Below, in pieces: positions 5,922 through 33,191 of a stretch of 44,860 nucleotides of DNA. Position 1 is the stretch's first letter. Each line of letters starts with the position of its first letter. The notes under the pieces were generated by a model that was not told the DNA's origin, made no database searches, and worked only from the letters and a program-made list of their open reading frames with translations. Origin of the DNA: an uncultured Alphaproteobacteria bacterium. Lineage in GTDB: Bacteria; Pseudomonadota; Alphaproteobacteria; Rhodobacterales; Rhodobacteraceae. The translations under genes were made by a program, and so were the position numbers. The DNA is taken from assembly GCA_902524845.1 (NCBI GenBank), contig CABZEW010000015.1, positions 1 to 44,860 of the forward strand, in the 5' to 3' direction.

Positions 5922-6311
5922 ATGTCTATTTTTACTGAGGACCTTTTCACAAAAGGTATTAAACAGAGAGTGTCAACGGTTGGAGAAGATTATGTAAAGA
6001 AAAACCTAGAAGAAGCAGACGAATTCTCGCGGCCTTTTCAAGAGGCAATGACAGCGTGGTGTTGGGGATTTGGTTGGGGCGACGAAGTAATTGACGCAAA
6101 AACTAGATCAATGATGAATCTTTCGATGATTGGTGCTCTCGGAAAAATGACAGAGTGGGAAACACATTTTAGAGGCGCAATAAAGAATGGGGTTTCAAAA
6201 AACGAATTACGAGCAATTATCCACGTGATTGGTATTTATTGCGGTGTTCCACAAGCTGTAGAATGCTTTAGGGTAGCAAGAAAAGTGCTAGAAGAAGAAA
6301 ATTTAATTTAA
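5922..6311 (+). CDS. Carboxymuconolactone decarboxylase family protein (PcaC-like)
   Basis: A 129-residue all-helical protein of the CMD/AhpD fold in its PcaC-like branch. The pattern WGFGWGDEVIDAKTRSMMNL, then ELRAIIHVIGIYCGVPQAVE, matches 4-carboxymuconolactone decarboxylase and its homologues, including the conserved His in IIHVIGIY. There is no CxxC, so it is not an AhpD-type peroxidase. No other protocatechuate-pathway gene lies nearby, so decarboxylation of carboxymuconolactone is only one option. A strong AAAAGGAG ribosome site precedes the ATG. It lies in a run with GST, methyltransferase and synthetase genes. Confidence 0.85.
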   Translation: MSIFTEDLFTKGIKQRVSTVGEDYVKKNLEEADEFSRPFQEAMTAWCWGFGWGDEVIDAKTRSMMNLSMIGALGKMTEWETHFRGAIKNGVSKNELRAIIHVIGIYCGVPQAVECFRVARKVLEEENLI

Positions 6312-6333
6312 CAAAAAAGTGGTGTTAAATAAC

Positions 6334-7155
6334 ATGAATGACATAAAAGACATGAAACTTTATTCTGATGCCTACAGAATATTTAAAGATTTGAAAGCGA
6401 TTGGTTATTCGGAAGACGATAAACTTAATTTAGAAGACCTTAATCAATTCGACCAATTGCATTATCATGGAACGCTCAGTGTTCAAGAGGCTATAGAAGC
6501 TATTGATATCCGAGAGAATGATAATGTTTTAGAGGTAGGAGCCGGTTGGGGTGGTCCATCGCGATATATTGCATCTAAAACTAGAGCAAATGTTTCTGCA
6601 TTAGAACTGCAAAGAGACTATTCAGAGGTTGGACAGAAATTGACGCGCAAAACAGGTTTAGATAGTTTCGTTACACATATAAATCAAGATTTTTTAAATT
6701 TTTTCCAAAAGGATAATTCTTTCAATAAAATTGTTTCTTGGCTAGCATTATACCATATCCCTGATCGGAGAAAATACACCCACAAACTTTTTAGTTTGCT
6801 TAATAAAAATGGAATGCTTTTTGTTGAAGACCTCACGTTTGGAAAAAACTTTGAAAGCTCCCATAAAGCAATGTTAGAAAAGAAACTCTTCGCCAATTCA
6901 TTAGAAAAATATTCTGATTATTTAGATACTTGTGCTAACGTTGGTTTCAAAATTATTGAGCACAAAGATATGTCATCAGACTGGGGAAATTTCACTAATG
7001 AACGTTTGAAGGTGCTTCAAGCAAATAAAATTAATCACGAGAAAATTCATGGTGCCGAAGGATATAATAAAATTGAAGATTTTTATACCACCGTATCTGA
7101 GTGTTTCGCTGAAAACATTATTGGCGGTATAAGGTTGATTTGTAGGAAAAATTAG
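6334..7155 (+). CDS. SAM-dependent methyltransferase (sarcosine/dimethylglycine methyltransferase-like)
   Basis: A class I methyltransferase of about 273 residues. Motif I is VLEVGAGWGGPSRYIA and motif II the acidic strand ending SALELQ. NQFDQLHYHG before motif I resembles the opening of the glycine/sarcosine/dimethylglycine N-methyltransferase and phosphoethanolamine methyltransferase group. That resemblance hints at an amine or small-molecule acceptor but does not fix it. I placed the start at the ATG at 6334; a GTG at 6319 and an ATG at 6352 are also possible. It sits 33 bases upstream of the GlnT-type synthetase gene, probably in the same operon. Confidence 0.8.
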   Translation: MNDIKDMKLYSDAYRIFKDLKAIGYSEDDKLNLEDLNQFDQLHYHGTLSVQEAIEAIDIRENDNVLEVGAGWGGPSRYIASKTRANVSALELQRDYSEVGQKLTRKTGLDSFVTHINQDFLNFFQKDNSFNKIVSWLALYHIPDRRKYTHKLFSLLNKNGMLFVEDLTFGKNFESSHKAMLEKKLFANSLEKYSDYLDTCANVGFKIIEHKDMSSDWGNFTNERLKVLQANKINHEKIHGAEGYNKIEDFYTTVSECFAENIIGGIRLICRKN

Positions 7156-7188: not shown

Positions 7189-8490
7189 ATGGATTTGAAG
7201 AATTACGCAAAAAAGGAAAAAATAAAATATTTTATGGTGACATATACTGATCTTTTTGGAGTTCAGAGAGCAAAGCTTGTTCCTGCCTCAGCTATATCGG
7301 GTATGCAAAAAGATGGAGCTGGTTTCGCAGGCTTTGCTAGCTGGTTAGATATGACCCCAGCGCACCCAGATATGCTAGCAGTGCCTGACTCTGAAAGCGT
7401 CATAAAACTTCCATGGAAAAAGGACGTCGCTTGGCTTGCAAGTAACTGCATGATGGAAAATAAATTAGTTGATCAGGCTCCAAGAAATGTTCTTAACAAA
7501 GCTATTGCAAGGGCAAAAAAAGGAAATATGAGAGTGAAAACTGGTGTGGAGGCAGAGTTTTTTCTTTTAACGTCTGATGGATTAGCTATTTCAGACCCAT
7601 ACGATAACGCTGAAAAACCTTGCTATGATCAGCAGGCTCTTATGCGTCGATACGATGTAATAGCTGAAATTTGTGACTATCTTGGGGAATTAGGGTGGGG
7701 GCCTTATCAAAATGATCATGAAGATGCTAATGGACAATTTGAAATGAATTTTGAATTTGACGATGCTTTGCGAACTGCAGATAAACACTCGTTCTTTAAG
7801 TTCATGGTTAAATCTGTTGCAGAGAAGCATGGGCTAAAAGCTACTTTTATGCCAAAACCTATTGAAGGTTTAACGGGAAATGGTTGCCACGCACATATAT
7901 CAGTTTGGGATTTAAAGGCTAAAAAAAATGTTTTTGCTAGTAAGAAGTCAGATATTGGGTTGTCAAAAGAGGGTCTTCACTTTCTTGGCGGTATTATTAA
8001 TCATGCAAAAGCCATGACTGCGATTACAAACCCGACTGTAAATTCTTATAAACGCATTAACGCTCCTAGAACCTTAAGCGGCGCAAGTTGGGCGCCAAAT
8101 ACTATTACCTGGACAGAAAATAATAGAACTCATATGGTTAGAGTACCGGACGCGGGAAGATTCGAACTCAGACTTCCTGATGGAGCTACTAACCCTTATT
8201 TATTGCAGGCAGCTATCATTACTGCAGGCTTAAATGGTGTCGATAAAAAATTGGATCCGGGGGAAAGATCAAATACAAATATGTATGAAGACGCAAAAGC
8301 AATAGCCAAGGCTGAAAAATTGCCATTAAATTTACTTGATGCTCTTCGGGCCTTTGACAAAGATAAAAACTTTAAAGACGGACTGGGAAAAGCTTTTTCT
8401 GATTCATTTGTTAAGCTTAAAATGGAGGAATGGCATTCGTATACCGCTCATTTTTCAGAATGGGAAAAAAGAAACACTCTGGATATTTAG
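7189..8490 (+). CDS. glnT: Type III glutamine synthetase GlnT / gamma-glutamylmethylamide synthetase-like
   Basis: A 433-residue ligase of the GlnT group, which uses ATP to join glutamate to ammonia or to a small amine. The N-terminal beta-grasp region reads YTDLFGVQRAKLVP, followed by GAGFAGFASWLDMTPAHPD. Catalytic landmarks are GVEAEFFL (metal Glu), QFEMNFEFDDAL, GNGCHAHISVW (His loop), NSYKRINAPRTLSGASWAPN and GRFELRLPDGATNPY (Arg/Glu). Sequence alone does not separate true glutamine synthetase III from gamma-glutamylmethylamide synthetase (GmaS). The usual mgs/mgd genes of the methylamine pathway are absent here, but a methyltransferase and a DpkA-like imine reductase are neighbours. The family assignment is very secure and the substrate is open. 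Confidence 0.9.
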   Translation: MDLKNYAKKEKIKYFMVTYTDLFGVQRAKLVPASAISGMQKDGAGFAGFASWLDMTPAHPDMLAVPDSESVIKLPWKKDVAWLASNCMMENKLVDQAPRNVLNKAIARAKKGNMRVKTGVEAEFFLLTSDGLAISDPYDNAEKPCYDQQALMRRYDVIAEICDYLGELGWGPYQNDHEDANGQFEMNFEFDDALRTADKHSFFKFMVKSVAEKHGLKATFMPKPIEGLTGNGCHAHISVWDLKAKKNVFASKKSDIGLSKEGLHFLGGIINHAKAMTAITNPTVNSYKRINAPRTLSGASWAPNTITWTENNRTHMVRVPDAGRFELRLPDGATNPYLLQAAIITAGLNGVDKKLDPGERSNTNMYEDAKAIAKAEKLPLNLLDALRAFDKDKNFKDGLGKAFSDSFVKLKMEEWHSYTAHFSEWEKRNTLDI

Positions 8491-20930: not shown

Positions 20931-21656
20931 ATGCGACTCAAAAACAAAAAAGCTTTCGTAACTGCCGCCGGTCAAGGAATTGGTAAAGCTATTGCAGAGA
21001 AATTCGTTAATTTCCGCTCCGATGTCCTTGCTGTTGACATAAACGAAGATTTGTTAACAAAATTAAATGTTCCCAAGTCTCTTTGTTTAGATGTCAGAGA
21101 TGCTGAAGCTATCCTTAAAGCGATAAAAGATTTTGAGCCAGATATATTGATAAATTGTGCAGGTATAGTTCACTCAGGTACAATACTTACATCTAAAGAA
21201 GATGAGTTTGATGACGCAATTGATTTAAATATCAAGTCCATGTATACCACTATAAAAGCTGCTATCCCTTTTATGCAGAATAAAGGTGGCGGCAGTATAG
21301 TTAATATTGGTTCCGTAGTTTCATCTGTAATTGGTGCGCCCAACCGTTGTATTTATGGTTTGTCAAAGGCTGCAGTAATCGGTTTAACCAAGTCCGTAGC
21401 TGTAGATTTTGTGAAAGAAGGAATTAGATGCAATTGCATATGTCCAGGAACTGTTGATACCCCATCATTACATGAAAGACTTGAGGCAACTGGTGATTAT
21501 GAAAAGGCTATGAATGATTTTGTAAATAGGCAGCCAATGGGAAGGCTTGGATTTGCAGATGAAATTGCTGATCTAGCAGCTTATTTGGCATCCGATGAAA
21601 GTAAATTTGTTACAGGACAAGAGCATATTATTGATGGAGGCTGGTCTGCTAGGTAA
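20931..21656 (+). CDS. SDR dehydrogenase, DHRS6/BDH2-like (hydroxybutyrate or keto-deoxy-fuconate type)
   Basis: A 241-residue classical SDR. The cofactor motif is TAAGQGIG (11-18), NCAG lies at 75-78, and the catalytic residues are S128, Y142 and K146 (IYGLSKAAVIGLTKS). The stretches PNRCIYGL, IRCNCICPGTVDTPSL and VTGQEHIIDGGWS strongly resemble human DHRS6 and bacterial 2-keto-3-deoxy-L-fuconate dehydrogenases. A short hydroxy acid is therefore the likely substrate type. It heads a plus-strand trio with FadH-like and FAD oxidase genes (gaps 46 and 39 bases). The start has no obvious ribosome site. Confidence 0.85.
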   Translation: MRLKNKKAFVTAAGQGIGKAIAEKFVNFRSDVLAVDINEDLLTKLNVPKSLCLDVRDAEAILKAIKDFEPDILINCAGIVHSGTILTSKEDEFDDAIDLNIKSMYTTIKAAIPFMQNKGGGSIVNIGSVVSSVIGAPNRCIYGLSKAAVIGLTKSVAVDFVKEGIRCNCICPGTVDTPSLHERLEATGDYEKAMNDFVNRQPMGRLGFADEIADLAAYLASDESKFVTGQEHIIDGGWSAR

Positions 21657-21702
21657 TTTAGTATTACGCTGGTAAATAGCTTTCAGGAAAGAAGAGGATA
21701 GA

Positions 21703-23736
21703 ATGAAAGATAAATACAGGCATATTTTCGAGCCACTGGTAGTAGGTAACCACGTTATAAAAAATAGAATTATAATGGGATCTATGCACACAGGCTTAGA
21801 AGAAGGGGGACATGAGGACTTCTCTAGAATGGGAACATATTTTGCTGAGAGAGCCTCCACAGGCGTTGGCCTTATAATAACAGGAGGTATTTCCCCCAAT
21901 GAAGAAGGCGCTCTAGATGGAGCTATTTTCAATAAAGAAAGCCAAGTTCCAAGGCATAAGATTGTTACAGATGCGGTTCACAATGCGAGTGCTGACACGA
22001 AAATTTGTATGCAGATTTTACATTCAGGTCCATTGGCAATAAGTGAAGAATTAGTTGCCGCCAGTCCAGTCCGGTCTAGAATTGGACGTCTTGTTCCAAA
22101 TGAAATGTCACTAGAAGTGCTAAGAAAACAAGTTGATGACTTTATCAAATGTGCTGAGCTATGTAAAAAAGCTAATTATGATGGAGTAGAAATTATTGGT
22201 TCAGCTGGATATTTTATTTCTACTTTTTTCGTAAATAAAACAAATCTGAGAACAGATGAGTATGGAGGTAGTTTCTCCAATAAAATTCGAATTGCAACAG
22301 AAATTGTGAAGGGAATTCGTAAAGCTGTTGGCGAAGATTTTCTGATTATATTCAGGATACCGGCAATGGATATGCTTGAGGGAGGAATGTCATGGGAAGA
22401 GATCTGTGCCTTAGGGCAGGCCTTAGAAAATTCGGGTGTTTCGATAGTGTCTACCCATTTTTCATGGCATGAAAGCCCTGTTCCAACTATTGCAACAATG
22501 GTTCCTAGAGCAGCTTTTACATCAGTAACCAAGCGCCTAAAAAGTTTTATTAATGTTCCTGTAATTACATCAAACAGAATAAATATGCCGGATGTCGCTG
22601 AGACAGTCTTGGCGAATGGTGATGCAGACTTAGTTTCGATGGCAAGACCCTTTCTTGCAGATGGTAGAATTTTTGAAAAAATTAAAGAAGGTAGGGAAGA
22701 CGAAATAAATACATGCATAGCTTGTAACCAAGCTTGCCTAGACCATGCCTTTGATAAAAAAGAAATATCGTGCCTAGTGAATCCGAGAGCATGTAATGAA
22801 ACCAATCTGAACTATTTACCGACTATGAATAAAAAAAACATAGCCGTTATTGGTGCTGGCCCGGCAGGGCTTGCTTTTTCTGAAATTGCAGCTTTAAGAG
22901 GGCATGATGTTGAATTATTTGAGGCAAGTGATCAGATAGGCGGTCAGTTTAATCTGGCCAAACAAATACCCGGTAAAGAGGAGTTTCATGAAACAATCCG
23001 CTATTTTTCTACTATGCTTAGGAAAAATGGCGTAAAGGTAAACTTAAATAAAAAGGTTCAACCAATTGATTTAATTGAAAAAAAATATGATGATGTCATT
23101 GTATCTACTGGTGTATATCCAAGGTCTCTTGATATTCCTGGTATCGATGAAGAAATCGTTGTTTCATATATAGATGCAATAAGAGACATAGATAAAATTG
23201 GAAAAAAGGTAGTTCTTATTGGAGCTGGGGGTATAGGTTTTGATATGGCTGAACTTTTGTCTCATGGTAAAAAGAAGCCCTCTACTAATATAGATGACTT
23301 TGCTGAGCAATGGGGTATAGATTTTACCAATCATCCGAGAGGTGGTGTAACTGGTGTTACGGCTAAAGCAAGCAAATCTGAGCGTGAAATCTATTTATTG
23401 CAAAGAAAACTAACGCCATTAGGGATAGCGTTAGGTAAAACTACAGGATGGACCCACAGGTTAAGTTTGAGAAAAAAAGAAATAAAGATGCTGAAGGGAG
23501 TTACCTATAAAAAGATTGCAAAAAATGGTATTCACATCTCTATTAATGATCAGGATCAGTTTATTGAATGCGATAACATTATTGTTTGTGCTGGACAGGA
23601 GCCAGATCGTTCATTTTTTGACTCGGCAAGTAATGCTGAATTTCGCATGCACCTAATCGGGGGTGCTTATGAGGCTAGAGAATTAGATGCAAAGGTCGCA
23701 ATTAAGCAAGCTTCGGAATTAGCAGCAGTTATTTAG
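21703..23736 (+). CDS. fadH: 2,4-dienoyl-CoA reductase-like flavoprotein (FadH family) with altered active site
   Basis: A 677-residue three-part enzyme: an FMN TIM barrel (1-370), a 4Fe-4S site (C338, C341, C345, C357) and FAD/NADPH domains (GAGPAG near 384, GAGGIG near 506). It follows E. coli FadH along its length, including CIACNQACLD, CLVNPRAC, KQIPGKEEF and GKTTGWTHR. Y170 and H256 match the catalytic Tyr166 and His252. The Glu164 equivalent is Ala168 (GSAGY instead of GSEGY). FadH reduces dienoyl-CoAs in unsaturated fatty acid breakdown. The lost Glu and the oxidase neighbours leave room for another substrate. AGAGGA precedes the ATG. Confidence 0.85.
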   Translation: MKDKYRHIFEPLVVGNHVIKNRIIMGSMHTGLEEGGHEDFSRMGTYFAERASTGVGLIITGGISPNEEGALDGAIFNKESQVPRHKIVTDAVHNASADTKICMQILHSGPLAISEELVAASPVRSRIGRLVPNEMSLEVLRKQVDDFIKCAELCKKANYDGVEIIGSAGYFISTFFVNKTNLRTDEYGGSFSNKIRIATEIVKGIRKAVGEDFLIIFRIPAMDMLEGGMSWEEICALGQALENSGVSIVSTHFSWHESPVPTIATMVPRAAFTSVTKRLKSFINVPVITSNRINMPDVAETVLANGDADLVSMARPFLADGRIFEKIKEGREDEINTCIACNQACLDHAFDKKEISCLVNPRACNETNLNYLPTMNKKNIAVIGAGPAGLAFSEIAALRGHDVELFEASDQIGGQFNLAKQIPGKEEFHETIRYFSTMLRKNGVKVNLNKKVQPIDLIEKKYDDVIVSTGVYPRSLDIPGIDEEIVVSYIDAIRDIDKIGKKVVLIGAGGIGFDMAELLSHGKKKPSTNIDDFAEQWGIDFTNHPRGGVTGVTAKASKSEREIYLLQRKLTPLGIALGKTTGWTHRLSLRKKEIKMLKGVTYKKIAKNGIHISINDQDQFIECDNIIVCAGQEPDRSFFDSASNAEFRMHLIGGAYEARELDAKVAIKQASELAAVI

Positions 23737-23775
23737 TTTTTAAACTATAATTTTTATAATTATGAAAGGAAGCAG

Positions 23776-25086
23776 ATGAGTAACGAACAAAATTTTGATG
23801 CTATCATTATTGGGGCTGGTGTTATTGGCAACGCCGTTGCCTTTGAATTATCTAAACAAGGTTTGAAGACTTTAAACATAGATAGAAATCACGTATCAGG
23901 TTATGGCTCTACTTCGGCTTCCTGTGCAATTATTAGAGTACATTACTCGACGTTTGATGGCTGTGCTCTTGCTTATGAGAGTTATCACTTTTGGAAAGAT
24001 TGGATGGCATATTTAGAGGTATCAGAACAAGATAATCTGGCTAAGTTTATTGAGTGTGGGTGTATGATTTACCAAACTGAGCAAAATAACTATCTAGATA
24101 AAGTAATCAAAAGAGCTGAGGAACTGAATATACCTCATGAGCTATGGGATCCAAAAAAAATTAAAGAAAAACTGAGAATTGTTGATACGAATAAATATGG
24201 GCCTGTAAAGTCAACAAGCGATAAAAGCTTTGGGTCAATAACGGGAGATGATTTAAGGGGGTCTGTTTTCTTTCCTACAGCCGGTTATATAAATGATCCT
24301 CAGCTTTCTGCGCAAAATCTACAAATGGCAGCTTCAAAGAAAGGAGCGAAATTTCTATTTAAATCAAGCGTTAAAGGGATAATTCAGGAAAAGGGGAGAG
24401 TTGGCGGTGTTGTCTTAGAAAATGGTGAGAAAATTAACGCAAAAATTGTTGTGAATGTTGCTGGGCCACACTCTATGAAGGTCAACCAAATGGCAGACGT
24501 AGAAAATGATATGAATATAAAAACGAAAGCTTTAAAGGTTGAGGTTTGTCATGTGCCTTCACCATCTGGATTTAATTATGAGAAAGAAGGTTTTGTAATT
24601 TCTGATAGCGATATAGGATGTTATAGCCGACCTGAAATTGGAAACAATGTGCTTATCGGCAGTGAAGACCCGGAATGTGATGAAAGGTTGTTCGTAGATC
24701 CTGATATTTGGGACGAAAGCTTTTCTGAGCAATGGAGAACCCAAGTTATAAGACAGGCACAGAGGTACCCAGATTTGCCAATACCATCAAATTCAAAGGG
24801 TGTTGTGGCTTTATATGACGTCTCTGATGATTGGATCCCCATTTACGATAAATCCTCTTTGCCAGGATTTTATATGGCGGTTGGCTCAAGTGGAAATCAA
24901 TATAAGAACGCTCCAATGGCTGGAAAGATTATGGCTGAATTGATAGTGGAGTGCGAAAATGGGCATGATCATGACAAGAATCCTATCAAACTTCATTTAA
25001 ATTATATTGATAGAGAAATTGATCTAGGCTTTTATTCACGCAACCGCTTAATTAATGAGGAAAGCAGCATGTCCGTTTTAGGTTAA
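23776..25086 (+). CDS. FAD-dependent amine/amino-acid oxidoreductase (DAO family)
   Basis: A 436-residue flavoprotein with an N-terminal IIGAGVIG FAD motif (11-18) and the family's GSTSASCAIIRVHYS loop, where ordinary members have a (G/S)xxS..G segment. VVNVAGPHS is the mid-chain signature, and AVGSSGNQYKNAPMAGKIMAEL the C-terminal FAD loop. It resembles the sarcosine/dimethylglycine oxidase side of the family, so an N-methylated amino acid is a reasonable but unproved substrate. A GAAAGGAAG ribosome site lies just before the ATG. It is the last gene of the SDR/FadH-like trio. Its stop overlaps the stop of the converging M29-like gene. Confidence 0.8.
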   Translation: MSNEQNFDAIIIGAGVIGNAVAFELSKQGLKTLNIDRNHVSGYGSTSASCAIIRVHYSTFDGCALAYESYHFWKDWMAYLEVSEQDNLAKFIECGCMIYQTEQNNYLDKVIKRAEELNIPHELWDPKKIKEKLRIVDTNKYGPVKSTSDKSFGSITGDDLRGSVFFPTAGYINDPQLSAQNLQMAASKKGAKFLFKSSVKGIIQEKGRVGGVVLENGEKINAKIVVNVAGPHSMKVNQMADVENDMNIKTKALKVEVCHVPSPSGFNYEKEGFVISDSDIGCYSRPEIGNNVLIGSEDPECDERLFVDPDIWDESFSEQWRTQVIRQAQRYPDLPIPSNSKGVVALYDVSDDWIPIYDKSSLPGFYMAVGSSGNQYKNAPMAGKIMAELIVECENGHDHDKNPIKLHLNYIDREIDLGFYSRNRLINEESSMSVLG

Positions 25087-26135
25087 ATTCCGCTAAAAAC
25101 GTTTTTTAAGGTTCCATGTTTTTCCATAAGAACTTTTGTATTCTCAAAGCCGTCGAGCATTAATTCTCCATCTTTCCACAATGGCTTGTCATCGATTAGC
25201 ACAGTGTGATTAGGTATCATCCAGCATATCTCACCAGGCGCATAATTCCCGCAGGTATGGAAATGAAGATATTTGGGTTGTCCGAACACTGTATTTGACC
25301 ATTTATCAGGGTCATATTCATAAAATTTATTATCCTCTGCTCCTGGATGTATCCCCGGGTGCCACGAGTGTACCGCATGCATATCTATGTCAAACTTTTG
25401 GGAAACATACATGTAGTGGTTCTGAATGTTGTTGACATCGTCAGATGTTCCCTGAAGGTCAGCAATTCTACCATTCTCAATATGAATAGTTACCTCACTG
25501 TTTATTTTTAAAAAACTCGGTTTATAAAATCTTGATCCTGTAGATGTAAGATAGTTGTTCAAAACAACTTTGCCCGAGAACGGCTTTGCATCTATGGGTT
25601 TAGGAACAAGTATTGGAAATCTTAGTACTGATACTTCTTTGGTTTCAGAGTTATCTTGAGTTATCTCTCCAATCAAATTTGTTCCTAGTGGGCAATTAAT
25701 TTTTATTACATTGGAGTTTTCTATCAACCTATCAATTGCGTTCTTTACAAGGACATTTAAGTTATAATCCAGTGTCCCAAAGATAGACGCTAGGCTTTCG
25801 CAGTCTCTTACATAGCTCATAACTCGCTTTGTAGAAAAGCCTTTTTTCTCAAAACGATTTTGATCACCCAATCGCGCAAAAAAAATGACACAGCTATATT
25901 TATTAATTTTTTCATAAAAATTTTGATCTTTATTTATCTCGGGTGAACCAACTTCATCTAAAGAAGCGTGAATACCCCTTTCTTGGGCATACTTAAAAAT
26001 AAAGTCAGAAATATCATTCTTATACCAGCCTAAACTTTCTTTTTCCCTCACAATTAATAAAGTGTCAGATTGCTTTAGCCTTGCACATTCTATCAGAAGA
26101 TTGTGCGCTGCTTTTGAAAGTTTTTTGTCATTCAT
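25083..26135 (-). CDS. M29/NicX-like metalloenzyme, substrate unknown
   Basis: A 350-residue protein with the overall layout of M29 aminopeptidases and 2,5-dihydroxypyridine dioxygenase NicX. The C-terminal half is rich in possible metal ligands: H253, H256, H259 and H263 (MHAVHSWHPGIHPGA), and H291 and H293 (LHFHTCGNYAPGEICW). The HxD pair that binds iron in NicX is not seen; the matching place reads CWM. It is therefore neither a standard NicX nor clearly a peptidase. I start it at the ATG at 26135, five bases after the stop of the oxygenase gene; upstream in-frame starts would overlap that gene. It ends a five-gene minus-strand operon. Confidence 0.65.
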   Translation of the reverse strand: MNDKKLSKAAHNLLIECARLKQSDTLLIVREKESLGWYKNDISDFIFKYAQERGIHASLDEVGSPEINKDQNFYEKINKYSCVIFFARLGDQNRFEKKGFSTKRVMSYVRDCESLASIFGTLDYNLNVLVKNAIDRLIENSNVIKINCPLGTNLIGEITQDNSETKEVSVLRFPILVPKPIDAKPFSGKVVLNNYLTSTGSRFYKPSFLKINSEVTIHIENGRIADLQGTSDDVNNIQNHYMYVSQKFDIDMHAVHSWHPGIHPGAEDNKFYEYDPDKWSNTVFGQPKYLHFHTCGNYAPGEICWMIPNHTVLIDDKPLWKDGELMLDGFENTKVLMEKHGTLKNVFSGI

Positions 26136-26140
26136 ATAGT

Positions 26141-27100
26141 CTATTTTCTGTATGAAAATGCTTTGCCAAATCTCCATATAAGATAGTCGCCACATGTTAT
26201 TGGGTCGCTAAGGCTTTTTTCGTTTTCACCAAATATATCAGCTGGATTAATATATGTCTCTGGATTTGGGTCGAAAGCTAGAACTATCGATAGACGTTCC
26301 TTTCCTGATTGATTGACAACTCGGTGGGGTGTGGATTTATATAAACCATTTGTCCATCTGCTCAGAAGGTCTGCTACATTTACTACTAATGTACCTTCTA
26401 CAGGCGGCGCATGAAACCAATCACCTGATGAATCTTGTATTTGAAGTCCTCCAACAGAGTCTTGGCAAAGCACGGTTAAAACGCCAAAATCTGTATGAGC
26501 GCTTACGCCAAATTGATCATCACCCATTTTTTTTGGTTGATCAGGGTAATAAACGAGAGATGCGCGGCTTAAGGGTTGAGAAGCATTTCGGATAAAAAAA
26601 TCTCTTTTTAAATCTAGGCCCAAAGCAAAGCCTTCTAAAAGAGTTTTAGCCAAGTTGTCTGCTAAATCAAAATAATTAAGGGCATTTTCCTTGAAGCTTG
26701 GGATAAAGCTCGGCCATTTATTAGGACCCCTAATAGGGTGGTCGTCAATTTCCCCAACTTGGTATTCATAGCCCCAAATAAAGCTTTCTTTTAAGTCAGG
26801 TTTTGCGTCATCTTCCATTTTTGCACCGCCAAATCCGAGCCAACCTCTATGTCTTTCTGAAATCGTCACTAATTCTTTATTTTCCTCGCTGGATCTAAAG
26901 AATTTGAGACCATCATCTCTCAGCGCATCAATTTTTTTTTGTGGAATACCATGGTTTTTTATATAAATAAAACCCAATCCCGTACTTGCATCATAAAGCT
27001 CTGTTGCGACCGAAGTGGGGTCCGAATTATCTCTAAGAGATCCAATGTCAATAATGGGAACTTTGTCTATGTCTAGCTCTTTTACTAATGAGGTGCTCAT
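26141..27100 (-). CDS. 2-oxoglutarate/Fe(II) dioxygenase (isopenicillin N synthase-like)
   Basis: A 319-residue cytosolic oxygenase of the IPNS/DIOX group. The N-terminal DIOX_N region begins VPIIDIGSL. The iron facial triad is H202, D204 (SAHTDFGVLT) and H259 (STPHRVV), and R269 with S271 (RLSIVLAF) binds the 2-oxoglutarate carboxylate. All catalytic residues are intact. Such enzymes hydroxylate or demethylate small molecules. Placement after an amino-acid-type ABC transporter and before an M29/NicX-like enzyme suggests it attacks the imported compound. AGGA at good spacing supports the ATG. Eight bases separate it from the AhpD-like gene. Confidence 0.85.
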   Translation of the reverse strand: MSTSLVKELDIDKVPIIDIGSLRDNSDPTSVATELYDASTGLGFIYIKNHGIPQKKIDALRDDGLKFFRSSEENKELVTISERHRGWLGFGGAKMEDDAKPDLKESFIWGYEYQVGEIDDHPIRGPNKWPSFIPSFKENALNYFDLADNLAKTLLEGFALGLDLKRDFFIRNASQPLSRASLVYYPDQPKKMGDDQFGVSAHTDFGVLTVLCQDSVGGLQIQDSSGDWFHAPPVEGTLVVNVADLLSRWTNGLYKSTPHRVVNQSGKERLSIVLAFDPNPETYINPADIFGENEKSLSDPITCGDYLIWRFGKAFSYRK

Positions 27101-27108
27101 TATATTTC

Positions 27109-27444
27109 CTAATTTGATAGTTGATCAAAGGCCTCCAATGCCTTTGCACTGTATGTTATTGAGGGACCACCACCCATATATGAGCTCATGCTTAGAGCTT
27201 CAACTAATTCCTCTCTTGTTGCCCCTAAACGAACTAAATGTTCAACATGTAGTCCTATGCAACTCTCACACCTGACAGCAACTGAGATACCAAGAGCAAT
27301 AAATTCCTTGGTTTTTTCACTTAAGTATCCATTCTTCTTTGCATCTTTACCCATAACTCCAAAACCTTCAAACGTAGCTGGGGTTTCCTTTTGAAATTTT
27401 GAAAACAGTTGTTTGGTATCAGCGGTTAATTTTTTCCAGTCCAT
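27109..27444 (-). CDS. AhpD-like carboxymuconolactone decarboxylase family protein
   Basis: A 111-residue helical protein with the AhpD-type redox motif C59-E-S-C62-x3-H66 inside SVAVRCESCIGLHVEHLV. The family includes alkylhydroperoxidases that protect against peroxides. The later GGGPSITYSAKALEAF stretch is family-typical. In this operon it may clear peroxide or another by-product made by the neighbouring oxygenase, which is inference from position. It lies 82 bases downstream of the permease gene and 8 bases upstream of the oxygenase gene. Confidence 0.85.
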   Translation of the reverse strand: MDWKKLTADTKQLFSKFQKETPATFEGFGVMGKDAKKNGYLSEKTKEFIALGISVAVRCESCIGLHVEHLVRLGATREELVEALSMSSYMGGGPSITYSAKALEAFDQLSN

Positions 27445-27526
27445 ATCTTATCTTTCTTTTCTAACTTTATTTAAAGTCTAAATTTTCTGACATTTTATTC
27501 AATAGTTCATTATTTCCAAAATGGTC

Positions 27527-28297
27527 TTAGCTGTTGGCACTTTCATTGGATCCAAGCTTTTTCTCCAAATATCTTACCCCAAAGCTAATAAGCAACACTA
27601 GAATTAGATACTCAAAAATCAAAAGTGTGTAGATCTCTAAAGGACGGTATTCTGTTACAACTATCTCGTTTGCTCTCCTTGTTAACTCTTGCATCCCAAT
27701 AACTGAAGCGAATGCAGACATTTTTACAATATAGATGAATTGGTTTGCCAGAGGCGGTAGAATCCTTCTCAATGCTTGGGGCATGATCACATATCTCATG
27801 GTTTGGTAGTAGTTTAGGCCAATAGTCTTTGCGGCTTCAGTTTGTCCTTTAGAAATGGATTGTATGCCAGCCCTATAAATTTCTGCAGTGAATGCACTAT
27901 CCGAAATTGCTAATGTGATAATTGCTCCCCAGAAAGCATCGATATTGGCATTTATGCCCATTGACTTTAAAATGACAGGAAGTCCATAAAACACCCAGAA
28001 CAACATTGGCAACAAAGGAATAGACCTAATAAATTCTACATAGACTCTATTGAATAGTTGTAGCAGTTTATTGTCGGACATTGCTGGCAATGCTACAACA
28101 AGGCCTATAAAAATTGATAAAAAGGCAGCAATTATTGATAAAAGTATTGTTGAGTAAAAGCCTCCAACCAAAAATTTTATATTTGTCCACCCAGCCTTAG
28201 TAGAAGGGTCAATTACATACCATCCCCAAGTGCCTTCCGGCGACGAACAACTACTTAAAGTAAAAAAGATTAGAAATAATATTAAAATACGAAACAT
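27527..28297 (-). CDS. Polar amino acid ABC transporter permease (HisM/GlnP type)
   Basis: A 256-residue inner-membrane permease. After an N-terminal hydrophobic segment it carries the HisM-type TM region GGFYSTILLSIIAAFLS, the SIPLLPMLFWVFYGLP helix, and the EAA loop EAAKTIGLNYYQTMRYV, which docks on the ATPase. I start it at the ATG at 28297, seven bases after the ATPase stop; an upstream in-frame start would lie inside the ATPase gene. The N-terminus MFRILILFLIFFTLSSCSS looks like a lipoprotein signal, which is odd for a permease. Only one permease gene is present, so it probably forms a homodimer. Confidence 0.88.
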   Translation of the reverse strand: MFRILILFLIFFTLSSCSSPEGTWGWYVIDPSTKAGWTNIKFLVGGFYSTILLSIIAAFLSIFIGLVVALPAMSDNKLLQLFNRVYVEFIRSIPLLPMLFWVFYGLPVILKSMGINANIDAFWGAIITLAISDSAFTAEIYRAGIQSISKGQTEAAKTIGLNYYQTMRYVIMPQALRRILPPLANQFIYIVKMSAFASVIGMQELTRRANEIVVTEYRPLEIYTLLIFEYLILVLLISFGVRYLEKKLGSNESANS

Positions 28298-28304
28298 TGT
28301 TAAA

Positions 28305-29045
28305 TCAGTGGTGTAGTATTTGGTTAAGAAATTTTTTGCATCTTGCAGTTTGGGGGTTTTTAAAAAACATCCCAGGGCTGTTTTGCTCCACAATAGATCC
28401 ACCATCCATGAATATTATTCGATCGGCTACTTTTTTTGCAAAGCCCATTTCATGGGTAACAACAACCATAGTCATTCCTTCTCGTGCTAAATCGACTATC
28501 ACTTCTAGGACCTCTGAAATCATCTCTGGGTCCAGAGCAGATGTTGGTTCATCGAAAAGCATAAGTTTTGGCTCCATGCAAAGCGCACGAGCAATCGCAA
28601 CTCTCTGTTGCTGGCCTCCCGAGAGCTGATTTGGCTTTTTTAAAGCTTGTTCCGGTATCTTTACTCTTTCTAAAAGTCCTCTTGCACGGGTTTCCGCATC
28701 CTTTTCCGATAATCCTAGTGACTTCATTGGCCCTAGTTTTAAGTTTTCAATGACTGAGAGGTGGGGGAACAAATTAAATTGTTGAAAAACCATTCCAATA
28801 TGAAAATCAGAAACATAACTTTCCTTTTTGGGATTTTGAGTGTTGCCTGATATTGATATTTTCCCCTCATCAAAGTCTTCAAGGCCATTAATGCATCTTA
28901 TAAGCGTAGATTTACCTGATCCTGAGGGGCCACAAATTACAACTTTTTCACCATGCTTGATATTAAGGTCTATGGTGTCCAGGGCTTTAAAGTCTTTAAA
29001 TGATTTTGTTAGTCCTTCTATTTCGACTGCAAATGTATTTTCCAA
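28305..29045 (-). CDS. Polar amino acid ABC transporter ATPase (GlnQ/HisP type)
   Basis: A 246-residue cytosolic ATPase. Walker A is GPSGSGKST (about 39-47), followed by the Q-loop [11 protein letters not shown], the signature [15 protein letters not shown], the Walker [13 protein letters not shown] and the switch His in VVTHEMGF. These are typical of amino-acid uptake systems. The start is TTG at 29045 with a weak ribosome site. It is the first gene of the minus-strand operon (ATPase, permease, AhpD-like, oxygenase, M29-like) and is divergent from the matching binding-protein gene at 29226. Confidence 0.92.
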
Positions 29046-29125
29046 TTTATGCCCGCTTCCGTGTAAATCTTGCGTTTTGCTTATTTAGCTTAACCGCATG
29101 ACAATACTTAAAGCAACTCCTTGTT

Positions 29126-29158
29126 CTTAGTTGCATATTTCTTGGTTGCACTTATAGT
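29126..29158 (+). promoter_or_regulatory. Candidate promoter and direct repeats upstream of the binding-protein gene
   Basis: TTGCAT at 29131-29136 and TATAGT at 29153-29158, with a 16-base spacer, form a fair sigma-70 promoter. The near-identical decamers CTTAGTTGCA (29126-29135) and CTTGGTTGCA (29141-29150) sit one and a half helical turns apart over the -35 region and could be a regulator site. They lie in the 180-base gap between the divergent ATPase and binding-protein genes, where I see no other gene. Confidence 0.4.
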
Positions 29159-29225
29159 GTTAATGGCAAAAAAAGTTGTTTTTATAAACTAAAAATATTG
29201 GTTTTAATACCTAAGGGAGATTTTT

Positions 29226-29999
29226 ATGAAATTTTTAAGAATTATTTTTATTACACTGATGAGCATTGTTCTTTTCGTTAGTGGCGTAAGCGCAGAGTCA
29301 GCGCTTAACCAAATATTAAGTAGCGGTAAACTAAAAGCAGGGACCACAGGCGATTTTAACCCCTTCACGGTTAGGGATCCAGCGACTAATAAATACAAAG
29401 GTTATGACATTGACATAATGACCGAGTTAGCAAATGACCTAGGAGTAGAAATCGAATTTGTCCCAACAGACTGGAAGACAATAGTAAATGGCGTAGTCGC
29501 AGGGAAATACCATATAACAGGATCAGCGTCTATTAAACCTTCAAGAATGAAAGCCGCAGGTTTTTCTGAAAGTTACATGGCTGTTAACTTCAAACCTTTT
29601 ACTACATCTGATAAAGTAGGGCAGTTTAATGGTTGGGGCTCCATCAATAAAGATGGAGTAAAGGTTGCCACCACTCTTGGAACCGCTATGGAGCCCTTAG
29701 TTAAGGGTTGGTTTCCAAATGCCAGCATCAAAAGCGTTGAGGCACCTGCTAGAGGGTATCAGGAAGTATTAGCAGGGAGAGCAGATGTGTTTGTTACATC
29801 TAACTTGGAAGGCTCTACTCTTAAGGCAAAGTATTCAAATGTAAAAGAAATTAGTATAGACGCGCCGCGTTCACCAACTCCACTTGCTATGTTGCTTCCT
29901 CAAAATGACCAAGTGTGGATTAATTTTGTTAACCACTGGATAGAAATAAAGAAGGCAAAAGGCTTTTTTAAGAAAACTGCTGAAAAGTGGGGCCTGTAG
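29226..29999 (+). CDS. Periplasmic amino-acid-type solute-binding protein (SBP family 3)
   Basis: A 257-residue exported protein. A signal peptide (1-23, with KFLRIIFITLMSIVLFVSG and cleavage after SAE or VSA) precedes a family 3 binding domain. LKAGTTGDFNPFTVR, YKGYDIDIMTELANDLGV and EVLAGRADVFVTSNLE are the usual ligand-cleft and hinge stretches. The TTGDFNPF opening is also seen in cyclohexadienyl-dehydratase-like members, so enzymatic activity is a remote option. Divergent placement next to the ATPase/permease pair marks it as the receptor of that transporter. AAGGGAGA precedes the ATG, and a strong GC hairpin follows the stop. Confidence 0.88.
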   Translation: MKFLRIIFITLMSIVLFVSGVSAESALNQILSSGKLKAGTTGDFNPFTVRDPATNKYKGYDIDIMTELANDLGVEIEFVPTDWKTIVNGVVAGKYHITGSASIKPSRMKAAGFSESYMAVNFKPFTTSDKVGQFNGWGSINKDGVKVATTLGTAMEPLVKGWFPNASIKSVEAPARGYQEVLAGRADVFVTSNLEGSTLKAKYSNVKEISIDAPRSPTPLAMLLPQNDQVWINFVNHWIEIKKAKGFFKKTAEKWGL

Positions 30000-30014
30000 T
30001 CTGATTTTTGTGAT

Positions 30015-30040
30015 GGGCGGTACTGCCGCCCTTCTATACT
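30015..30040 (+). terminator. GC-rich hairpin after the binding-protein gene
   Basis: GGGCGG at 30015-30020 and CCGCCC at 30026-30031 form a perfect 6-bp stem with a 5-base loop, followed by a weak pyrimidine run (TTCTATACTT). It begins 15 bases after the binding-protein stop and stands out in AT-rich DNA. It may terminate most transcripts or protect the abundant binding-protein message while letting some read-through reach the next genes. Confidence 0.65.
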
Positions 30041-30054
30041 TGGAGCTTTTTAAA

Positions 30055-30633
30055 ATGTCCTCTTGGATTAAGATGCTTTCTGATGAAATGGCTGACACTG
30101 AACTTAAACAGGCATTGGATGAAGCAAGAACCCCTCATGGAACAGTTGATAATGTTCTAAGGGTCCATTCATTAAGACCTAATACTATGAAAGGCCATAT
30201 GGCTCTTTATAAAAGCTGTTTGCACGATGATACAAATACATTGCCGGAATGGTTACAAGAAACTATCAGCTCATATGTATCTATTTTAAATTCATGTGAA
30301 TATTCGCTTCTAAATCATTGGAAAAACACTGAATTTTTGATTCGTGATAAAGAAAAGAGCAATAAGATCTATTCTTCATTGAAAAAAAGAAAACCACAAG
30401 ATTGTTTCACAGGAGTTGAACTTGCTTTGATGCAGTACGCAGAAAAACTGACTTTAAGACCGAGTGATATAAAGAGAGCTGATGTGGATAATTTAAGAAA
30501 TGCGGGTTTAGATGATGGGCAGATATTAGAAGCTAATCAGATCATTTGTTATTTTAACTATGTGAATAGAAGTATAAATGGGTTAGGGGTTACCAATGAA
30601 GGTGACATTATAGGATATTACAAAGATGATTAA
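30055..30633 (+). CDS. Peroxidase-related CMD-family protein with a CxxS site
   Basis: A 192-residue protein of the long CMD/AhpD branch often labelled peroxidase-related enzyme. HGTVDNVLRVHSLRPNTM opens the family pattern, and ANQIICYFNYVNRSINGLGV closes it. The expected CxYCxxHH active site reads C81-E-Y-S84-x3-H88, so the second Cys is Ser (codon TCG). Thiol peroxidase activity of the usual kind is therefore doubtful. I start it at the ATG at 30055, because an upstream GTG would lie in the hairpin. It overlaps the EthD gene by eight bases. Confidence 0.8.
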   Translation: MSSWIKMLSDEMADTELKQALDEARTPHGTVDNVLRVHSLRPNTMKGHMALYKSCLHDDTNTLPEWLQETISSYVSILNSCEYSLLNHWKNTEFLIRDKEKSNKIYSSLKKRKPQDCFTGVELALMQYAEKLTLRPSDIKRADVDNLRNAGLDDGQILEANQIICYFNYVNRSINGLGVTNEGDIIGYYKDD

Positions 30634-31264
30634 CGCAGTTACAATTATTAAGAAAAAACAAGGCCTAACATATGAAAAGTTCCAGAATTACTGGAAAAAT
30701 GAACATGCTGAAATTGTTACTAGATCTCCACTAGTGGGAACCTATGTTCAATCTCATCCAATCTATAATGACAAATTGACTTTTGAAGATACTATCGATG
30801 GTATTGCAGAAATTTGGTTTGATGACACCAATGCAATGCGTTCTTTAGCTGCCACTAAAGAATATAAAGATATCCAAGATGATGAAAAAGTCTTTATAGA
30901 TGGCAGTGCCGTAAGGTTAATCATTGCCGAGGATATAATAACTTTTGATGGTCCCGTTTCAGACCATAAGCTTTTAATATTTATGAATAAATCTAGTAAT
31001 GTTGAATTAACAGACTTTAGAAGAGATTTAGTTGAAACGGCATCTAACTACTCCAAAAAAAATCTAAATAGGATGAAAGTAAGTTTGCCAAAAATAGCAG
31101 GCTACAAGGGAGATAAAAGTCCTGCATGGGATGCTATTTTAACTTTTTGGTTAGACTTCGAAGTCGATCAACAGTACATAGACGATATAGTGAGTGATTT
31201 TTCGTCTTTTTGCTATAATACCATTGCAAAATTATGTAATTCGGTAGTGGTACAGGAAAAATAA
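30626..31264 (+). CDS. EthD domain protein
   Basis: A 212-residue protein. Residues 1-105 are an EthD-type dimeric alpha/beta barrel with the typical VTIIKKKQGLTYEKFQNYWK, NEHAEIV and GIAEIWFDD stretches. Residues 110-205 look like a second, weaker copy of the same fold (KLLIFMNKS, then ILTFWLDFE). EthD proteins accompany oxidative breakdown genes and some act as enzymes, but the role is rarely known. It overlaps the CMD gene, so the two are translationally coupled. It ends nine bases before a converging cyclase gene. Confidence 0.75.
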   Translation: MINAVTIIKKKQGLTYEKFQNYWKNEHAEIVTRSPLVGTYVQSHPIYNDKLTFEDTIDGIAEIWFDDTNAMRSLAATKEYKDIQDDEKVFIDGSAVRLIIAEDIITFDGPVSDHKLLIFMNKSSNVELTDFRRDLVETASNYSKKNLNRMKVSLPKIAGYKGDKSPAWDAILTFWLDFEVDQQYIDDIVSDFSSFCYNTIAKLCNSVVVQEK

Positions 31265-31273
31265 TCGAATAAG

Positions 31274-33106
31274 CTATTCGGGCATACCCGCAAGGCGGAT
31301 TCCCTCAATCATTAATTCTTGTATCTCTTTGTTAAGGTCGGGAGCAACGCTCTTATAGTCGTCAATTGTTTTTATTTCGGGGCGCTCTTCTTGATATTTC
31401 AAGAGCCATTCTTTACTTTCAGTCAATTCACCCTTATGAGCTAAAACGGCTGCTTTAAAGCCATAATAACGACTATGGTTGTTTTCTCTCATTTCGCGTT
31501 CTAAAGACTGAAGCGCATTTTCCCAATCACGGTTACCAAAATGGCATAAAAATATAACGGTTTCCCCATAACCTTCTCCCAACGGGTCTATTTCAGCTGC
31601 TCTAGTAAGCGCGTCAATAGCACCAGTAAACTGCCCTTCTTCCAATAGATTCATTCCTTTAGCCATTAATGATCTTGAGTGGTGGGGGTTAACTTCGAGA
31701 GCCTTATTTACATGATCACTGAATCTATTTTTATCACCGTCAATAAATGAAATGAAACCCATATTCATCAGAGAATCAGGGTTTTTGGGATCCAATTGAA
31801 ACGCTTTTTCTGTATATTTCCGAAAGTTTTTATCATTTTCCTCTCTTTTATCCTGTACTGACGATTCAAAAATCAAAAAATTATGCATTTGAGCTAACAG
31901 ATTAAAAGCAGAACTATGATTAGGGTCTAATGCAGTCGCTTTTTCCCCATGTTCCATTGATTTATAAATGTGCATGAGTTTTTCTTCAATCGTCTTTGAA
32001 GAATTCATCAGTGCAAATGAGTTTAGAGCTTGCAAATACTCATCCCAACTGCTGAGTGCATTCAGCTCTCGATCAGATAATTTTTTTCTTTCATTATTGA
32101 TGATTGCTGGACTGATCAATGCTGCGGATTTTTGTGAAACTTCATCCTGAACTTCAAAGACATCATCTAATGACCGATCCCAGGTTTGTGACCAGATTTG
32201 GGTATCTTCAACAGCATCGGTTAGTTTTGCCATTATTCTAACTTTATTGCCGCCTTTTCTTATGCTTCCTTGCACCAAATAGCTAGCACCTAGCTCAGAG
32301 GCAATTTTTTGTGTAGGTTCTTTCGTATCTTTGTAAGGGATTACAGAATTTATAGATATAATCGGGAATGTCTTCAGTTTAGATAGATAGGAAATTATAT
32401 CCTCAGTGATCCCATCAACAAAGAAATCTTGCTCGGAGTCATTGCTTAAATTCAAGAAAGGAAGTACCGCTACTGAGGGCGCTTTACTTGTTTTTGTAAT
32501 TTTTTCAGCTGCAGCCTCTGCAAGTTTTTTGTCATTTTTCTCTCGAACTTGTAGATCGGGATCCGCAATATCGTAGGCATGGACCTCAGTGTTTTTTACC
32601 TTTTGTTCCCCAAGATCATTGAATAGCAGTTCTGTCTTTTTATTTACAAAATCAACTATGCTCTTTGATACACATATCCCATTGGCTTGTGAGAGAGCCT
32701 CAAGTCTCGCGGCTACATTTACACCTTCACCGTAAAGATTATCTCCTTCAATTATTACATCACCCATATTCAAACCTATCCGGAAGCTCATTTGGGATTC
32801 TTCAGAAACTGACTTATTTCTCTCCTTAATTAATTTTTGAAATTCATTTGCACAAACCACTGCAGAGACAGCACTCTGAAATTCAGCTAATACAGAATCT
32901 CCTGCTGTATTAAAAATTCTGCCACCATGCTCTTCAAAGAGTTTATCTAGGATTTCCTGGCAAGCTCTAAAGCTTAGTAAGGTTTCTTCTTCATTTACTT
33001 CCATAGATTTGCTGAAACCAACAACGTCAGTCACAAAAATAACTGCGATTTTTCTGTCTATGTCTCGCTGAGGAGATTTATTTAATTGAACAACGTTCTC
33101 TGCCAT
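31274..33106 (-). CDS. Class III adenylate cyclase with TolB-like and TPR regions
   Basis: A 610-residue soluble protein. The cyclase domain (18-185) has metal Asp D27 (VTDVVGFS) and D70 (TAGDSVLAEF) and the N130/R134 pair (VNVAARLE). A TolB/FlgO-like domain follows (195-330, VAVLPFLNLSNDSEQDFF, ASYLVQGSIRK). The C-terminal 270 residues contain TPR-like helices around AFNLLAQMHNFL, DSLMNMGFISF, RSLMAKGMNLLEEG and AIDALTRAAEIDP. This architecture is frequent in Alphaproteobacteria and probably makes cAMP, with partner proteins bound by the TPRs. I use the ATG at 33106, with AGGTG six bases upstream, over a GTG at 33115. Confidence 0.88.
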   Translation of the reverse strand: MAENVVQLNKSPQRDIDRKIAVIFVTDVVGFSKSMEVNEEETLLSFRACQEILDKLFEEHGGRIFNTAGDSVLAEFQSAVSAVVCANEFQKLIKERNKSVSEESQMSFRIGLNMGDVIIEGDNLYGEGVNVAARLEALSQANGICVSKSIVDFVNKKTELLFNDLGEQKVKNTEVHAYDIADPDLQVREKNDKKLAEAAAEKITKTSKAPSVAVLPFLNLSNDSEQDFFVDGITEDIISYLSKLKTFPIISINSVIPYKDTKEPTQKIASELGASYLVQGSIRKGGNKVRIMAKLTDAVEDTQIWSQTWDRSLDDVFEVQDEVSQKSAALISPAIINNERKKLSDRELNALSSWDEYLQALNSFALMNSSKTIEEKLMHIYKSMEHGEKATALDPNHSSAFNLLAQMHNFLIFESSVQDKREENDKNFRKYTEKAFQLDPKNPDSLMNMGFISFIDGDKNRFSDHVNKALEVNPHHSRSLMAKGMNLLEEGQFTGAIDALTRAAEIDPLGEGYGETVIFLCHFGNRDWENALQSLEREMRENNHSRYYGFKAAVLAHKGELTESKEWLLKYQEERPEIKTIDDYKSVAPDLNKEIQELMIEGIRLAGMPE

Positions 33107-33191
33107 AATGTACACCTGAGTAGTACTGTAATATTTTTTTTCTTAAAGTCACGAACTTAGAATACATTTTTAATATTAAGTTAGAGAAGTA

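Follow-up and report, generated by a model that had tools for sequence, protein, structure and literature searches.

A putative six-gene uptake and ring-cleavage module with exchanged oxygenases in an uncultured Rhodobacteraceae genome

The stretch of DNA analyzed here (the window; 44,860 nucleotides, contig CABZEW010000015.1 of assembly GCA_902524845.1, C15 in our numbering) belongs to the 1.95 Mb, 74% complete genome of an uncultured member of the Rhodobacteraceae. It contains a divergent locus of eight genes (Table 1) encoding an ATP-binding cassette (ABC) transporter, a 2-oxoglutarate (2OG)/Fe(II) oxygenase, a protein referred to below as M29-like after peptidase family M29, an AhpD-like and a peroxidase-related protein, and an EthD protein. 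We propose that six of them, for the binding protein, permease, and ATPase of the transporter, the 2OG oxygenase, the M29-like protein, and the peroxidase-related protein, form a catabolic module that would import a carboxylated N-heteroaromatic compound, hydroxylate its ring, and open it with a dioxygenase of the NicX fold; we assign this explanation as a whole a probability of about 0.5. Its observed part comprises the gene content of the locus, the joint loss of the six genes, the mutual exclusion of two types of oxygenases, the predicted fold of the M29-like protein, and a change in the binding site of the transporter.

Delimitation of the proposed module by a natural deletion

Of the 22 genomes of the genus, 9 contain the M29-like gene; in the family it occurs in 48 of 394 genomes (E-value 1e-30) and in the class in 10 of 385. 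The neighboring DAO-type gene is present in 14 of the 22 genus genomes, most of which are incomplete; the M29-like gene is missing from five of the 14, and eight genomes have neither. At the same place in these five genomes (loci L224 to L228), the SDR, OYE, and DAO genes are followed by the AhpD gene and then by the EthD gene and the genes after it, while the genes for the M29-like protein, 2OG oxygenase, permease, ATPase, binding protein, and peroxidase-related protein are missing. All five reduced loci contain two decayed remnants, one from the M29-like gene (104 to 111 bases, 74-76% identity) and one from the peroxidase-related gene (246 bases, 76-77%). The ratio of nonsynonymous to synonymous substitution rates (dN/dS) of the latter remnant is 0.94 in L224 and 0.80 in L227 (rough values from saturated distances) versus 0.03-0.07 for intact copies; the AhpD gene is intact in the reduced loci, and its values for L224 and L227 are 0.12 and 0.11. 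Since the junctions are alike in all five genomes, we assume one inherited loss and not five, and loss is the simpler direction because more distant loci have the AhpD gene within the same gene set. This natural deletion indicates that the six genes are kept or lost together in the genus, independently of the AhpD, EthD, OYE, DAO, and SDR genes, and it is very likely that they constitute one catabolic module there. The OYE, DAO, and SDR products were considered as pathway members and rejected, since their genes are retained in the five genomes without the module.

We further examined 53 neighborhoods of M29-like genes (13 plus 40 fetched, a part of the family and class matches), which reach at most about 9.5 kb to each side and often end at contig ends, so that absences are weaker than presences. 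Neighbors were counted as tblastn matches (E-value 1e-10) at any identity unless stated otherwise, and five rows that form a distant sister group (L039, L040, L041, L088, and L089) were treated separately. The EthD gene, which had originally been predicted to take part in the pathway, occurs in none of the 53 other neighborhoods (the same-genus L042 ends before that place) and is kept where the module is lost, and we no longer count it as a pathway gene. AhpD, the other presumed helper, is only loosely tied to the module, being present in 10 of the 53 neighborhoods; OYE and DAO genes are found in a single one, L042. The CxxC pair is the motif of AhpD thiol peroxidases, and the AhpD-like product of gene 27109 has it in 17 of 17 rows. 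Gene 30010 encodes CxxS instead, with the second Cys absent in all 31 rows read, which makes its earlier description as a CMD peroxidase doubtful. The tree of peroxidase-related proteins did not resolve the position of the window protein.

Probable exchange of 2OG and Rieske oxygenases

The window oxygenase matches PF03171 and PF14226 with E-values of 2.2e-24 and 5.2e-25 and contains the HxD...H...R site. The triad H202/D204/H259 was correctly assigned in the original prediction and is followed by R269; all four are conserved in 11 relatives (the L180 sequence includes H202 and D204 only). Most M29-like genes are accompanied by another enzyme: a Rieske oxygenase is encoded in 36 of the 53 neighborhoods (matches below 35% identity were excluded) and a 2OG oxygenase in 7, whereas no neighborhood has both (Fisher p 1.3e-4, to be taken only as a guide because the rows are related). 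The partner Rieske enzyme is of the VanA type, carrying PF00355 and VanA_C, and Rieske and 2OG oxygenases are unrelated in fold and cofactors. The window locus has a 2OG oxygenase instead of the VanA-type enzyme, and we consider it quite likely that the two are equivalent in role.

The original prediction was staked on the oxygenase and M29-like genes occurring together in other genomes, and they do: in the class sample of 385 genomes, 2OG homologs of at least 60% identity occur in five, always accompanied by an M29-like gene (in one of them the 2OG gene is split by contig ends, with one piece beside the M29-like gene), whereas the next homolog, at 52%, is not so accompanied. In the 58-row tree of M29-like proteins, the 2OG label needs four changes, three of which are forced by well-supported branches; the 2OG rows L107 and L120 are placed among Rieske rows, and the window falls into a clade of eight (six with a 2OG oxygenase, two without an oxygenase; support 100/98). 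In quick trees, the window permease groups in a clade of Rieske-type loci (support 98 in the Shimodaira-Hasegawa-like approximate likelihood ratio test, SH-aLRT), and so does the window binding protein with weaker support (88 and 93). These trees suggest a mosaic origin of the window, with the genes for oxygenation and cleavage swapped next to a transporter of greater age. The M29-like tree also places plasmid rows among the rows of the window family; the homolog in L031, from the same family, matches plasmids of Leisingera, Ruegeria, and Paracoccus, and the gene is named only "hypothetical protein" in 12 plasmid records.

A distant Rieske gene lies elsewhere in the genomes of the genus, including genomes without the module; full-length matches (30-32% identity) are present in 9 of 22 and matches of any length in 11 of 22. 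L191 and L192, two loci anchored on the binding protein and outside the set of 53, have a distant Rieske match (25-28%) beside the 2OG gene. In addition, 14 of the 53 neighborhoods (L037, L081, L091, L092, L096, L097, L100, L101, L102, L104, L110, L112, L113, and L116) encode a protein of the fatty-acid desaturase family, in most cases together with a small Rieske ferredoxin; this protein may be a third exchangeable oxygenase.

Solute, ring cleavage, and the proposed pathway

The binding protein belongs to family 3 (PF00497, E-value 9.7e-24). In the amino-acid binders of this family, such as HisJ and LAO, an Asp holds the alpha-ammonium group of the ligand. The window protein keeps the Arg for the carboxylate and has Ser for this Asp, as do 42 of 44 rows including the window, in an alignment that left out binding proteins below 36% identity or 200 residues; Asp is present in only two outgroup rows (L193 and L194), and AncCDT-1 also has it. 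The window protein therefore lacks the combination of Asp and Arg of amino-acid binders, and the amino-acid-like solute originally predicted is doubtful; a carboxylate without a free alpha-ammonium group, such as a betaine, would fit these residues best. The nearest solved chain, 5kkw/5wjp (labeled cyclohexadienyl dehydratase; E-value 3.4e-74), presumably from Pelagibacter, has the same Ser for Asp. Its SAR11-like relatives adjoin Sox genes without an oxygenase or M29-like gene, whereas the window locus has both.

The M29-like protein has no Pfam match even at an E-value of 10, PF02073 of peptidase family M29 included, and no NCBIfam match at 0.001; one homolog is likewise without a Pfam match. 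A true M29 peptidase is encoded elsewhere in the same genome (E-value 5.4e-162), and a profile-profile alignment of the M29-like protein with true M29 peptidases was not significant (one run used 7 of 11 rows). Phmmer and profile searches against PDB sequences gave chance-level matches only, and NicX was not listed in the sequence-profile search of PDB chains at E-values up to 10. The overall predicted fold, however, is of the NicX type and closer to NicX than to M29 peptidases, which favors ring opening over amide opening, and the NicX-fold protein probably cleaves a ring. NicX, the 2,5-dihydroxypyridine 5,6-dioxygenase of Pseudomonas putida, which forms N-formylmaleamate, is 13% identical to the M29-like protein and binds Fe(II) by His265, Ser302, His318, and Asp320, the last of which would be His in the M29-like protein; H279, H311, and H313 of the latter are invariant in 14 rows. 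We take the partner oxygenase and the transporter of the nicotinate pathway to be unlike those at this locus.

The neighbors at the 53 loci include a family-3 binding protein at 38 (at least 40% identity at 23), LysR-type genes at 30, the peroxidase-related gene at 27, a creatininase-family gene at 22, an XRE-cupin gene at 21, and Sox/Mgd-like genes at 9. The latter name is used because library names did not separate MgdABCD from sarcosine oxidase, as the scores fall on both sides of the sarcosine-oxidase cut-offs (the L037 and L039 subunits under, the subunits of SAR11-like L186 and the beta subunit of the window genome over). The Sox-type set of the window genome is apparently broken by the ends of contigs C65 (L197) and C41 (L196); judged by eye, it is followed on C41 by formate-tetrahydrofolate ligase and FolD genes. 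Near the loci compared here, L034, L087, L190, and L191 also encode, again judged by eye, a split pair resembling a thiamine enzyme and an aminotransferase of the HisC type. Histidine utilization (hut) genes are found at 10 of 84 loci, which partly overlap the 53, in several families (L033, L036, L040, L083, L084, L087, L097, L099, L111, and L176).

In the proposed pathway, the ABC transporter would take up an N-heteroaromatic compound that has a carboxylate but no free alpha-ammonium group; the betaine homarine (N-methylpicolinate) or a closely related compound is the most likely candidate. The 2OG oxygenase would hydroxylate the ring, probably at C5, in the role of the VanA-type Rieske oxygenase of most relatives, and the NicX-fold dioxygenase would cut between C5 and C6 in a NicX-like manner, yielding an N-formyl product with a glutamate skeleton. 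Removal of formate and reduction would then lead to glutamate or, from an N-methyl substrate, to N-methylglutamate, which would be demethylated to glutamate. This one pyridine-2-carboxylate scheme accounts together for the NicX fold, the formylglutamate neighborhood, the demethylases, and the binding site; the hut neighbors would make sense only if the pathways had a formylglutamate-type intermediate in common. Homarine, the naturally occurring compound of this kind, is a tentative choice of substrate. More speculative still is a second opening route for an abundant marine pyridine betaine, in which one-component 2OG enzymes would have repeatedly replaced Rieske enzymes as the first to attack the ring in streamlined open-ocean bacteria, feeding an undescribed clade of ring-cleaving NicX-superfamily dioxygenases that forms N-formyl(-N-methyl)glutamate-type products from pyridine-2-carboxylates such as homarine.

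The homarine operon described by Ferrer-Gonzalez et al. in 2026 is reportedly named homABCDER. Mgd is reported to take part in homarine catabolism (PMC13390433), and Sox/Mgd-like genes adjoin some of the M29-like genes studied here. In samples from the surface ocean, homarine was reported to account for as much as 3% of the particulate carbon, and in 2021 it lacked a characterized degradation pathway (PMC8269262); a later correction states that homarine concentrations had been overstated (PMC10134881). The trigonelline enzymes TgnA/TgnB also open the ring of an N-methylpyridine carboxylate, as proposed here, and are unlikely to act on homarine according to PMC8269262; no TgnA/TgnB-type genes were recognized at the locus, where no search by name was made. 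Neither homarine nor trigonelline occurs in PMC10130141, and no title among the literature matches listed describes this gene set.

Several points weigh against the proposed pathway. The substrate, the position of attack, and every chemical step are inferred by us, and the M29-like protein seems to have HxH in place of the His318-x-Asp320 of NicX. Eight of the 53 neighborhoods contain none of the three oxygenases sought, and two contain only the desaturase-family protein. Only 7 of 26 class genomes with a binding-protein homolog (E-value 1e-50) have the M29-like gene, linked to it in 6 (in one across a contig break), and 15 of the 38 binding-protein matches at M29-like loci are below 40% identity, often with another transporter layout. 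No M29-like match was found in L189, L190, and L191, where a 2OG homolog (41-46%) is accompanied by genes for a binding protein, a creatininase, Sox/Mgd-like enzymes, and a peroxidase-related protein, and in SAR11-like L186 and L187 the binding-protein gene lies directly behind a Sox-type set without an oxygenase or M29-like gene. These looser links outside the genus suggest that the transporter, the oxygenase, and the cleavage enzyme can be combined in different ways and are not one fixed operon, and they make the six-gene module slightly less likely because the binding protein often occurs there without the rest. The scheme is also incomplete for the window itself: the creatininase step lacks a candidate in the genus, with a creatininase-family gene in 0 of 22 genomes, and the Sox-type set of the window genome lies elsewhere, its beta subunit scoring as an ordinary sarcosine oxidase.

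Other explanations differ in the step assigned to the oxygenase or the NicX-fold protein. The oxygenase, whether 2OG or VanA-type Rieske, could be an N- or O-demethylase of a small carboxylated ring or betaine, the NicX-fold protein opening the demethylated compound. This would agree with the VanA_C demethylase domain of the Rieske partner, with the one-carbon Sox/Mgd-like enzymes neighboring some loci, and with the similarity of the 2OG enzyme to thymine dioxygenase (5c3p, E-value 2.5e-32), a methyl-group hydroxylase that is one of its closer relatives of solved structure; however, domain names do not fix the reaction, and if the methyl group were removed first, the Mgd/Sox-type N-demethylase neighbors would be less needed, so we regard demethylation as unlikely. 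Slightly less likely again, in view of the predicted fold, is that the NicX-fold protein is a hydrolase (an M29-type amidase or peptidase) opening an amide and not a ring. Of the originally predicted import and breakdown of one small nitrogenous compound, hydroxylation followed by ring opening is supported, and amide opening is the less favored variant.

The hut genes, found in several families, could also mean that the substrate of the module resembles histidine or is an imidazole, such as a derivative of N-methylhistidine, and feeds the hut pathway. Yet no hut gene was found in the window or in 74 of the 84 loci (L096 has a HutC-like match only), and known hut chemistry needs neither a NicX-like fold nor Rieske or 2OG oxygenases, which makes such a role improbable. 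As for a single pathway of all eight genes with AhpD and EthD as helpers, the genes are indeed all adjacent in five same-genus loci (L022, L023, L024, L026, and L029, the whole-stretch loci with the module) and in L028; the lack of EthD in the other neighborhoods and the survival of both EthD and AhpD after loss of the other six render it highly improbable.

If the proposed six-gene pathway is true, the module would be a marker for the breakdown of homarine, or of something similar, in open-ocean cells that are uncultured. Genomes would then reveal a part of the carbon and nitrogen loop, and lineages with the 2OG enzyme would be missed by a gene search for Rieske enzymes only. Whatever the substrate, two unrelated oxygenases swapped in one gene set are a good test case for non-orthologous displacement. 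Modules of uptake, oxygenase, and ring-cleavage genes are of a known kind; new here, as far as the models and literature searched show, are the oxygenase exchange and the NicX-fold clade, which has no family name in the Pfam and NCBIfam collections searched. Should the 2026 homarine pathway be the same gene set, the novelty would be limited to the 2OG version, and if that version is included, nothing beyond a new member would be left.

Locus layout and neighboring genes

The eight reading frames have the originally predicted place and strand, and Pfam and NCBIfam searches gave the families predicted for them: ABC ATPase, amino-acid-transporter-type permease, CMD/AhpD, DIOX_N with 2OG-FeII_Oxy, SBP_bac_3, TIGR01926, and EthD. 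The gaps between the minus-strand genes are 5, 8, 82, and 7 bases as described, given the permease start at 28297. The M29-like gene does not begin at 26195, the start listed first: the upstream extension has a stop codon in L015/L023 (one genome) and in L028, and the start is therefore most likely 26135. In comparison with same-genus L022, L026, and L029, dN/dS is 0.03 to 0.28 for the eight genes, with EthD highest, and 0.03 to 0.17 for the six module genes.

Table 1. Features of the locus and its surroundings (window coordinates).
Feature	Position	Strand	Remarks
NicX-fold, M29-like protein	25083..26135	-	350 aa from corrected start; proposed ring-cleaving dioxygenase
2-oxoglutarate/Fe(II) oxygenase	26141..27100	-	DIOX_N and 2OG-FeII_Oxy; in the position of most relatives' Rieske oxygenase
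AhpD-like CMD protein with CxxC	27109..27444	-	CMD; loosely tied to the module
ABC permease	27527..28297	-	BPD_transp_1; start at an internal Met is a choice
ABC ATPase, amino-acid-transporter type, TTG start	28305..29045	-	ABC_tran; best NCBIfam match GlnQ, under its cut-off
Divergent intergenic stretch, 180 bases	29046..29225		presumed site of both promoters
Family-3 solute-binding protein	29226..29999	+	SBP_bac_3; carboxylate Arg present, ammonium Asp replaced by Ser
Peroxidase-related CMD-superfamily protein (TIGR01926)	30010..30633	+	start possibly 30055; CxxS instead of CxxC
EthD protein	30626..31264	+	EthD domain; neighbor judged outside the module
Convergent SDR, OYE-type reductase, and DAO-type oxidase genes	20931..25086	+	neighbors judged a separate unit

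L028 (SGYQ01000025.1) is labeled as Burkholderiaceae MED-G174 and has the whole locus in the gene order of the genus; its proteins are 86-98% identical to those of the window (75% for the M29-like protein), and it is probably a mis-binned or misnamed alphaproteobacterial contig. Elsewhere in the window, positions 7189-8490 contain a glutamine-synthetase-family gene, by eye possibly gamma-glutamylmethylamide-synthetase-like, which is adjoined at 5922-7155 by genes for small CMD-like and methyltransferase-like proteins. Beyond the EthD gene, positions 31274-33115 encode a protein that, judged by eye, resembles adenylate cyclases and has a C-terminal part of the repeat type; it is conserved at that place with or without the module.

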